42,270 nt of DNA from Desulforamulus putei DSM 12395 (GTDB lineage: Bacteria; Bacillota; Desulfotomaculia; Desulfotomaculales; Desulfotomaculaceae), in NCBI RefSeq assembly GCF_900129195.1, contig NZ_FQUY01000024.1:1-42270 (forward strand), given 5' to 3'. Below the pieces are notes generated by a model. The model did no database searches, was not told the origin of the DNA, and saw nothing but the letters and a program-made list of their open reading frames with translations. Shown piece after piece: positions 19,508-26,373 of the stretch (the stretch's first letter is position 1; each line of letters starts with the position of its first letter). A program made the translations under genes and the position numbers.

Positions 19508-20584
19508 ATGTTGAAAGCATATAAATACCGACTATATCCAACTAAAGAACAATCCCGAAAAATGCACGAAACCTGCTTCCTGTGCAGTCTGGTGTATAAC
19601 CAGTTCTTGGAGGAACGCCGGGAAGCCTGGGAAATATTCGGGGTTAGCCTTAGCTGCTATGAGCAAATAAAAGCTTTGCCTATCAAGAAAGAAGATGACC
19701 CACGGCTTAAACAAGTCTTTTCCCAGGTACTCCAGGATGTTGCCCGGCAGGTGGATAAGACCTACCAGGCTTTCTTCCGCAGGGTGAAAGCTGGGGAGAC
19801 CCCGGGCTATCCCAGGTTTAAGGCAGCTCGAAGATATGACAGTTTTACTTACCCGCAGTCTGGGTTTTCTTTGAAAGATAACCGTCTGGTACTCTCAAAG
19901 ATAGGCCCGGTGAAAATAAAACTGCACCGTCCCATGGATGGTAAGGTTAAGACACTAACCATCCGGCGGCAGAACGGTAAATGGTACGCTTGCTTTTCGG
20001 TGGAGATAGATGCAGTACCACTACCGCCTACCGGTGAATCCTGCGGAATAGACGTTGGGTTAGAAAAGTTCGTCACCACCTCAGACGGAGAAATGTTTGA
20101 TAATCCCCGGCAATTACGCCAGGCAGAAAAGAAACTAAAGCAGCACCAACGCCGGGTATCCCGCAGGAAAAAAGGTTCTAACCGCCGGAAGAAGGCTGTC
20201 CGGGAACTGGCCCGGTGCCACGAAAAGGTGGCTAACCAGCGCCGGGATCTGCACCATAAGGTTGCCCGTTCCCTGGTAAACCGGTACGATGTGATAGCCA
20301 TTGAAGATTTGCAGGTTAAGAATATGACCCAGAATCACCACCTGGCTAAGAGTATTGCTGATGCCGGCTGGGGGAACTTCAGACTAATCCTAACGAGCAA
20401 GGCTGAGAGTGCCGGCCGTAAGGTAGTTGAAGTTGACCCCAAGCAAACATCACAATTATGCTCCCGGTGCGGTGCGGAAGTTAAGAAAAAACTTTCTCAA
20501 AGGTGGCATCATTGCCCGGTTTGCGGTCTGTCTATAGACCGGGATATAAATGCTGCCATTAACATTTTAAAACGAGCAGTATAA
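19508..20584 (+). CDS. tnpB: TnpB, RNA-guided nuclease of IS605-type elements
   Basis: A 358-residue protein, full length for this family. N-terminal helices (MLKAYKYRLYPTKEQ) lead to a RuvC-like nuclease with acidic residues in GIDVGLEKFVTTSDG, AIEDLQVKNM and the final DRDINAA. A zinc ribbon with CSRCG and CPVCG lies between the last two. Known TnpBs cut DNA guided by an RNA from the element's 3' end and are the ancestors of Cas12. All catalytic positions look intact. The start is ATG 19508 with GAGGTG 7 bases upstream. Orientation is opposite to the neighbouring par genes. Confidence 0.95.
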   Translation: MLKAYKYRLYPTKEQSRKMHETCFLCSLVYNQFLEERREAWEIFGVSLSCYEQIKALPIKKEDDPRLKQVFSQVLQDVARQVDKTYQAFFRRVKAGETPGYPRFKAARRYDSFTYPQSGFSLKDNRLVLSKIGPVKIKLHRPMDGKVKTLTIRRQNGKWYACFSVEIDAVPLPPTGESCGIDVGLEKFVTTSDGEMFDNPRQLRQAEKKLKQHQRRVSRRKKGSNRRKKAVRELARCHEKVANQRRDLHHKVARSLVNRYDVIAIEDLQVKNMTQNHHLAKSIADAGWGNFRLILTSKAESAGRKVVEVDPKQTSQLCSRCGAEVKKKLSQRWHHCPVCGLSIDRDINAAINILKRAV

Positions 20585-25349: not shown

Positions 25350-25539
25350 AATTATCCATCCCTAATCATTTTGGGTCATTAATAATTTGCCATGTCCAGG
25401 TAAGAAATATGAGGGTAATTATCAAATGTTTTTGTTTTTTGAGTGGATCATAGACCACCCATGGCAATTCATGACCTTTGTCGACAGTCTGAAATTAACT
25501 TTTTAATAGTTTAGGGAGGTTATGGACAAATCCAGCAAA
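25350..25539. other. gap between the SASP-like gene and hsp20
   Basis: AT-rich, without a supported gene. It should contain the SASP-like promoter; a CATATT...AATTATTA pair about 20 bases apart on the minus strand is only a weak match to sigma-G sites. Confidence 0.4.
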
Positions 25540-25983: not shown

Positions 25984-26051
25984 ACTATAACCCTCCTTTA
26001 TTTTATTACACTTTTTTAATGCCCAATAAAATTAAATTGTATTCATAAAAC

Positions 26052-26297
26052 GGGCTGTGGTATAGCAGAAATCTTAGCGCCGCTTTCTGCTTATGGTACC
26101 GACAACAGCCCTTGGCGAAGCGCAGGAGCAAAATCCGGGGGCGCAACCAGGACGGTTGCGCCAGCCCGAACTGAACCAGGAAGGTGAATTGAGGGCGACC
26201 GGATTTTGCCCGGAGCGAGCCTTAGGGTACCCACGGGCACAAGACTGTCGGTGCGGCAACCGGAGTGAACGGGATAACGGAACTTCCCCTGTTATCC
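26052..26297. other. GC-rich, heavily folded non-coding element
   Basis: About 250 bases, much richer in GC than the flanks, made of nested hairpins. Hairpin 1 pairs 26052-26062 with 26097-26111 and has an inner GCAGAAA/TTTCTGC stem. Hairpin 2 is an 11-bp stem GCAAAATCCGG (26128-26138) with its complement (26199-26209), enclosing GCGCAACC/GGTTGCGC (26141-26161) and GCCC/GGGC. Hairpin 3 has GCAC/GTGC and CGG/CCG near 26237-26262. Hairpin 4 is GGATAAC/GTTATCC (26272-26297). Frames on both strands are proline/serine/arginine-rich without start signals, so I do not call a protein. It may be a structured RNA or a dispersed repeat. Confidence 0.6.
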
Positions 26298-26300
26298 ACA
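26292..26300 (+). promoter_or_regulatory. isolated perfect DnaA box
   Basis: TTATCCACA, the exact consensus, partly inside the last hairpin of the folded element and followed by an AT-rich stretch. It is about 6.4 kb from the main box cluster. Confidence 0.55.
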
Positions 26301-26337
26301 GTTTATTTTATATAGAAACATAATTTCCTAAACAATA

Positions 26338-26363
26338 CAAAATCCAGGCAAGCCTGGATTTTG
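26338..26363. terminator. bidirectional terminator after rsmG
   Basis: Perfect 11-bp arms CAAAATCCAGG and CCTGGATTTTG around CAAG. On the minus strand it follows rsmG by 10 bases. Confidence 0.82.
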
Positions 26364-26373
26364 TATCTGTATA

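Follow-up and report, generated by a model that had tools for sequence, protein, structure and literature searches.

The locus between rsmG and hsp20

The window, a stretch of 42,270 nucleotides from Desulforamulus putei DSM 12395, contains a GC-rich, strongly folded element between two genes that we take to be hsp20 and rsmG (these names, like that of dnaA, come from the first-pass annotation or from recognition by eye). The GC content is 0.57–0.63 across positions 26050–26299 and 0.28–0.41 in the neighbouring sequence (100-base windows). Folded as + strand RNA, positions 26040–26310 reach −116.4 kcal/mol (z = −5.37), and none of 200 shuffles was as good; folded as the − strand, the same stretch gives z = −3.52. 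Two perfect 11-bp arms lie 60 nt apart (Table 1), and additional arms pair 26140–26148 with 26154–26162, 26064–26071 with 26084–26091 and 26052–26061 with 26102–26111. The only open reading frames (ORFs) of at least 60 amino acids over the folded stretch, of 61 and 76 amino acids, overlap each other on opposite strands. These results bear out the first-pass annotation in its description of a GC-rich folded stretch between hsp20 and rsmG, of the 11-bp arms and several more stems, and of the absence of a supported protein; the perfect DnaA box that it placed at the 3′ edge (TTATCCACA, starting at 26292) is also there. The hairpin at the right edge is probably a degenerate outer arm of the element. 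Promoter-like sites occur near the element and were given no weight. Elsewhere in the window, an ORF at 19508–20584 resembles, by eye, TnpB/OrfB of the IS200/IS605 group.

Table 1 Positions of the element, its parts and neighbouring features in the window
Feature	Position	Strand	Basis
Whole element, edges uncertain	26045–26311	+	Outermost imperfect arms 26045–26060 and 26296–26311, 75% complementary
TwoAYGGAY unit: middle stem, inner stem and two GGA hairpins	26091–26259	+	Model R1, built without the window; 104.2 bits, E = 2.6e-24
Match to Rfam RF01731 (TwoAYGGAY)	26113–26223	+	39.1 bits; gathering score 43
Inner stem, 5′ arm GCAAAATCCGG, partner 26199–26209	26128–26138	+	Inverted repeat and fold
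Inner stem, 3′ arm CCGGATTTTGC	26199–26209	+	Inverted repeat and fold
Hairpin 1, loop motif CAGGACG at 26148–26154	26140–26162	+	Inverted repeat, model and motif scan
Hairpin 2, loop motif CAGGAAG at 26177–26183	26164–26196	+	Fold, model and motif scan
Right-edge hairpin GGATAAC...GTTATCC, overlapping the DnaA box	26272–26297	+	By-eye comparison with copies in G002, G005 and G009
Perfect DnaA box	26292–26300	+	Absent from the related copies tested
Terminator-like hairpin 3′ of rsmG	26335–26366		No second copy across the element (by eye)
Remnant end of IS1182 type (subgroup A) 3′ of hsp20, CAGACTGTCGACAAA at 25477–25491 (−)	25442–25491		Alignment

A worn copy of the TwoAYGGAY family

At the curated threshold, an Rfam scan of the window returned tRNAs only. 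At a relaxed threshold, the element was matched by RF01731, or TwoAYGGAY, which was put forward in 2010 as a candidate RNA (PMC2864571); the score falls just under the gathering score. When eight loci were scored with RF01731, six were above the cut-off; the window's locus and another, at 38.3 bits, were below it. We then scored the window with a covariance model of relatives (R1; 38 aligned copies from 36 genomes, mostly the best match of each genome, with the window excluded), which found the unit in Table 1 as its single match in 42 kb (E-values are rough). The relatives' model scores the window copy at 104.2 bits, so the shortfall seems to reflect a limited fit of the Rfam model to this lineage. 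The copy has two terminal hairpins with AYGGAY-type loops within enclosing stems, as the family requires. We take its membership in TwoAYGGAY as settled: the stretch, in which the first-pass annotation saw no likeness to a riboswitch, CRISPR or IS end, does resemble a known family. The copy looks worn, since its middle stem has three broken pairs and additional sequence along the 3′ side; it is a TwoAYGGAY copy that has diverged and in part decayed.

Compensatory changes in the stems, which the first-pass annotation had named as a check, were sought in the 38 aligned copies. The 26 pairs of the model are paired in 88.5% of cells, as against 59.6% in shuffles and 29.6–39.3% when partners are slid by one to three columns, and the covariation score is 0.708 (shuffles, 0.209; slid partners, at most 0.131); the pairing structure was derived from the same alignment that scores it, which favours the structure. 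Pairs with changes on both sides number 24 of 26, a count that does not exceed that of shuffles, since 59 of 500 attain it. By strand, 36 of the 38 copies fold better as sense. Dinucleotide shuffles reproduce −5.6 of the −8.1 kcal/mol sense advantage, with 30 of the 38 copies beyond their own shuffle mean, and this strand asymmetry is a weak signal that is mostly composition. Counts of G-U and A-C pairs on the sense fold are 38 and 28.

A dispersed element

Copies were counted in D. putei and its relatives, another check named at first pass. With model R1, the D. putei genome gives five matches: one on contig 37 (114.3 bits), the window copy, a partial match (43.8 bits) and two weak ones (29.9 and 25.7 bits). 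With the Rfam model (E ≤ 0.001), 18 of 60 relatives match, D. putei included, 14 of them over the cut-off, and two genomes of the same genus hold at least 38 and at least 34 copies, with up to 38 candidates scored in each genome. A nucleotide search alone found 8 of the 60, again with D. putei included, and would have implied a narrow element. Across the phylum, at least 50 of 398 sampled genomes carry TwoAYGGAY and at least 34 exceed the cut-off, in a scan that scored six candidates per genome under strict filters and missed some carriers. In this order, TwoAYGGAY is a dispersed element, and it occurs across many Clostridia. The first-pass annotation had offered a structured RNA or a dispersed palindromic element as alternatives; with covarying stems and dispersal, both hold at once. 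Its suggestion that the element is specific to this lineage does not survive the phylum-wide count. Separately, a pattern scan of named genomes returned 18 stretches, several in unrelated phyla, which are probably chance.

Subgroup A has IS1182-type ends and flanking hairpin duplications

To characterize the flanks, we used the same-genus genome G003, from which all 38 scored copies were fetched, each from a different place; for 36 of them the two ends could be located (L083 and L092 were dropped). At 33 of these 36 copies, the 45 bases on each side share sequence above the 99th percentile of 1,260 mismatched pairs (L062, L064 and L070 fail). The shared sequence is 12–29 bases long and, at 30 of the 33, forms a hairpin of −3.6 kcal/mol or lower in both of its copies (L059, L063 and L084 are the exceptions), often with T's directly after it in the fashion of a terminator, as judged by eye. 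The element between the flanks is mostly 262–266 bp; it starts with CAGACTGTAGACAAA and finishes with a near inverse of that sequence.

The same ends recur five times in G008 at a distance of 1,607 bp, and at two contig starts in D. putei at 1,604 bp, with a long ORF between them. The D. putei ORF encodes a transposase of the IS1182 family (NF033551, 456 bits; cut-off 270), and the five G008 ORFs share 76% identity with it. Perfect direct repeats, each of them a hairpin, stand on either side of every one of the five G008 copies (21, 26, 27, 24 and 22 bp), and in D. putei an identical, perfect 27-bp hairpin stands at the two contig ends, which are most simply the two sides of one IS1182 insertion. 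The repeat length is not fixed and follows the hairpin, which points to recognition of the stem–loop itself. The contig-37 TwoAYGGAY copy of D. putei likewise has IS1182-type ends and a nearly duplicated hairpin (by eye), and among eight subgroup-A copies fetched from G016, ends were placed in seven and the hairpin is duplicated in six of these. A different picture is given by G007, where only 2 of the 22 copies compared, out of at least 34 in that genome, have a matching hairpin on both sides and some left hairpins of these loci (L094–L115) match the right hairpins of other copies, the best mismatched score being 31; this points to recombination between copies or misassembly in a genome that is 72% complete.

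No transposase like that of D. putei was found at E ≤ 1e-20 in G002, G003, G005, G007 or G016. Nor is IS1182 (called at E ≤ 1e-60, with three candidates scored per genome) commoner in TwoAYGGAY genomes of the phylum sample: it occurs in 9 of 50 with the element and 72 of 348 without it (p = 0.85). Given this lack of co-occurrence and the transposase-free carrier genomes, IS1182 explains some subgroups only, and partly in the past. It probably moves, or moved, these subgroups, and other carriers would have to exist for the rest. IS1202-type elements, considered as a candidate for their long target duplications, were dropped, as the transposase is of the IS1182 family.

Some further repeats were noticed in these genomes. 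In G046 and G038 (L116, L117 and L129), TwoAYGGAY units lie within another terminal repeat, AACTCAACTTTCGCAC, by eye, which suggests a second carrier transposon. G003 also holds inverted pairs of CAGACTG-type ends about 111 bp apart (for example, C8:234072–234182 and C3:205933–206043), too small for TwoAYGGAY and probably miniature elements of lesser size that share these ends. Inside TwoAYGGAY copies of G016 and G051 (L007, L018, L021, L022 and L023), a short palindromic repeat (GGGGACATACCTCC...GGAGGTGTGTCCCC) was seen by eye.

The window copy and its insertion place

The window copy belongs to a subgroup B that is also present in G002, G005 and G009 and has, by eye, outer arms around GTTATCC and no CAGACTG ends. 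Terminal inverted repeats matching the IS1182 element were not found at the window copy. By eye, there is no duplicate of the hairpin at 26335–26366 to the left of the copy, and none was seen around the subgroup B copies. The same-genus genome with the most similar rsmG, G003 (78%), has by eye no B copy between rsmG and hsp20; in that interval it has an A copy (L059) with a complete hairpin on one side and a degenerate version of that hairpin on the other. Most likely, an insertion between the rsmG terminator and hsp20 brought the window copy here, and erosion of the copy is under way.

Copies 3′ of rsmG occur in three of eight other genomes of the genus, in varying orientation; they include a partly deleted copy in G005 (42.3 bits) and an A copy in G007 that is cut by the contig end (22.1 bits), and the model finds none in the other five, of which G001 has only an rsmG fragment. 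The interval between rsmG and hsp20 looks like a repeated insertion target, in a place that was examined because the finding led there. On the far side of hsp20, directly 3′ of the gene, the stretch 25442–25491 aligns with an A-type end, which could be either of the two, at scores of 22.5–23.0 (shuffles, at most 21.0); with this IS1182-type remnant, element remains lie on both sides of hsp20. The conserved strand of the window copy is + and rsmG and hsp20 are both −; being opposite to both neighbours, the copy may be silent.

Paired GGA loops and co-occurrence with csrA

The 38-copy alignment has six invariant columns, all of them within the two loops, which also hold six of nine nearly invariant columns. 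The motif CA(n)GGA(n)G is present in both loops of 34 of these copies and missing from one loop in the other four, and the window copy likewise has it in both loops; among the 38 it occurs 83 times on the sense strand and once on the antisense strand, and the two loop motifs are 17–24 nt apart. Because the search model itself expects the loops, this conservation is partly built in, which applies less to the csrA association below. Binding of CsrA by TwoAYGGAY was proposed in 2014, in the passage that names the motif (PMC4333381). According to the relevant passages of PMC7652899, the SELEX consensus for CsrA is RUACARGGAUGU with the GGA in a hairpin loop, and one CsrA dimer can bridge two sites 10–63 nt apart, best above 18 nt. 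The window copy has GGA hairpin loops close to this consensus.

We next asked whether element and protein occur together, a co-occurrence test of the TwoAYGGAY–CsrA link that is new here. The D. putei genome has a csrA gene. In the phylum sample, csrA occurs in 48 of 50 genomes that carry TwoAYGGAY and in 244 of 348 that do not (p = 2.3e-5, uncorrected for phylogeny or motility), the csrA-less carriers being G220 and G412 of one family. Among the 60 relatives, a sample that partly overlaps the first, the figures are 17 of 18 with the element and 21 of 42 without it (p = 0.001), the exception being G009, which is 70% complete. As a control, csrA occurs in 61 of 81 IS1182 carriers and 231 of 317 other genomes (p = 0.78). 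Overlaps were counted by hand.

By a crude ORF call, a gene points at the 38 G003 copies from the sense side in 15 cases, from the antisense side in 10, from both in 9 and from neither in 4. Transcription of the conserved strand could therefore be possible at many copies without being a rule of insertion; as there is no clear sense bias, the counts do not support a cis role for the RNA.

Discussion

The window stretch itself has an ordinary explanation, as a worn copy of a known family. For the whole, we favour, with a probability of about 0.6, a reading in which this family is dispersed, its subgroup A is a passenger with IS1182-type ends, its subgroup B lacks those ends, and its fold is a putative CsrA decoy. 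TwoAYGGAY would most likely be a transposon passenger that carries a putative CsrA-binding RNA fold, and the mobility of related copies is suggested by their flanks and shared ends. Subgroup A would be a non-autonomous passenger that inserts at the base of terminator-like hairpins with duplication of the whole hairpin, so that the host gene keeps its terminator. Subgroup B, the window copy included, has no IS1182-type ends and may rely on another mobiliser. The feature under selection would be an RNA fold in which two CA(n)GGA(n)G loops stand about 21 nt from each other and would most likely serve a single CsrA dimer as a bivalent site; transcribed copies may act as CsrA decoys.

One other account has a real though minority chance of being right. 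It takes TwoAYGGAY as a purely selfish DNA element whose fold acts as DNA, as a cruciform or single strand, during transposition, whose loops are transposase contacts and whose RNA does nothing in the cell. Insertion in both orientations relative to genes fits this account, as do the hairpin targets with their duplication, and the outer arms of six B copies in G016 vary while staying 14–16/16 complementary within a copy, against a mean of 13.9 across copies, a small difference. Against it, the fold and loops persist across subgroups whose ends are quite different, the loop motifs lie nearly all on one strand, the element is associated with csrA, and G003 has end pairs separated by 111–134 bp, which leaves no room for the unit and suggests that ends can move by themselves.

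Local roles at the window locus are far less probable. That the RNA regulates hsp20 or rsmG in cis would agree with its Rfam type, 'Cis-reg', and with the position of the unit, which begins about 108 bases before hsp20 starts. Yet its conserved strand is opposite to both genes, every G003 copy lies in a different place, and the genome with the closest rsmG lacks a copy of the window's subgroup there, by eye, which makes such regulation very improbable. Titration of DnaA near the origin, which the first-pass annotation had raised, is favoured by the perfect box that starts at 26292 and has dnaA about 6.6 kb away, and by a site within one mismatch in 8 of 18 related copies. The box is not part of the element: it lies outside the modelled unit, and a perfect box is found in none of the 18 related copies (150 bases on each side included) and none of the 38 G003 stretches. 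It is also a single box and no cluster, and the element copies are scattered all over their genomes. The window has three other perfect boxes, two of them near dnaA. We regard a titrating site as scarcely credible.

Returning to the passenger with a putative CsrA-binding fold, a bolder version can be put forward tentatively, and we doubt it more than we believe it. TwoAYGGAY would be a transposable regulatory RNA: insertions would add bivalent CsrA-binding folds at the 3′ ends of many transcription units and rebuild the terminators they split, copy number would set the level of free CsrA, and the element would spread only where csrA exists.

In a search of mainly open-access literature, the passages that name TwoAYGGAY treat it as an RNA motif only; we found in them no tested function and no claim that it is dispersed or mobile. 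The same search yielded no paper linking CsrA to a transposon or sponge in Clostridia and none on miniature elements with target-site duplication at terminator hairpins. Within these sources, we found no earlier description of a structured element that bears CsrA-type loops and is carried, in some copies, by ends of IS1182 type into terminator-like hairpins that become duplicated. Dispersal on such ends and concentration in csrA genomes turn 'function unknown' into two testable questions, namely CsrA binding and mobilisation by an IS1182 transposase.

Comparison with known systems

RNAs of the CsrB, CsrC and RsmZ type each carry many CsrA sites. TwoAYGGAY resembles them in presenting GGA in hairpin loops of a structured RNA, with sites spaced for one dimer. 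It differs in having two putative sites, in existing as many dispersed copies rather than one gene, and in that no dedicated promoter was identified for it.

Within TwoAYGGAY (RF01731), the window copy agrees with the family in strand, in its two terminal hairpins with AYGGAY-like loops and in its enclosing stems, whereas its loops CAGGACG and CAGGAAG are one base shorter, as in many of the 38 copies, and its inner stem is short.

The closest likeness of subgroup A is to the IS1182 family and its non-autonomous derivatives (IS1272 and TnSha1 of staphylococci). According to the passages on target choice, IS1272 uses a stem–loop, often a terminator, without primary sequence preference and deletes or replaces the hairpin on insertion (PMC4923244, PMC5678879). 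Subgroup A shares the stem–loop target and has the terminal repeats of the D. putei IS1182 element; the window's own copy differs in having no such ends. In contrast to IS1272, the whole hairpin is duplicated here, as pathway b of the model in PMC5678879 would predict. The insertions described here thereby add cases of whole stem–loop duplication of the IS1182 type, an outcome drawn as possible in that IS1272 model.
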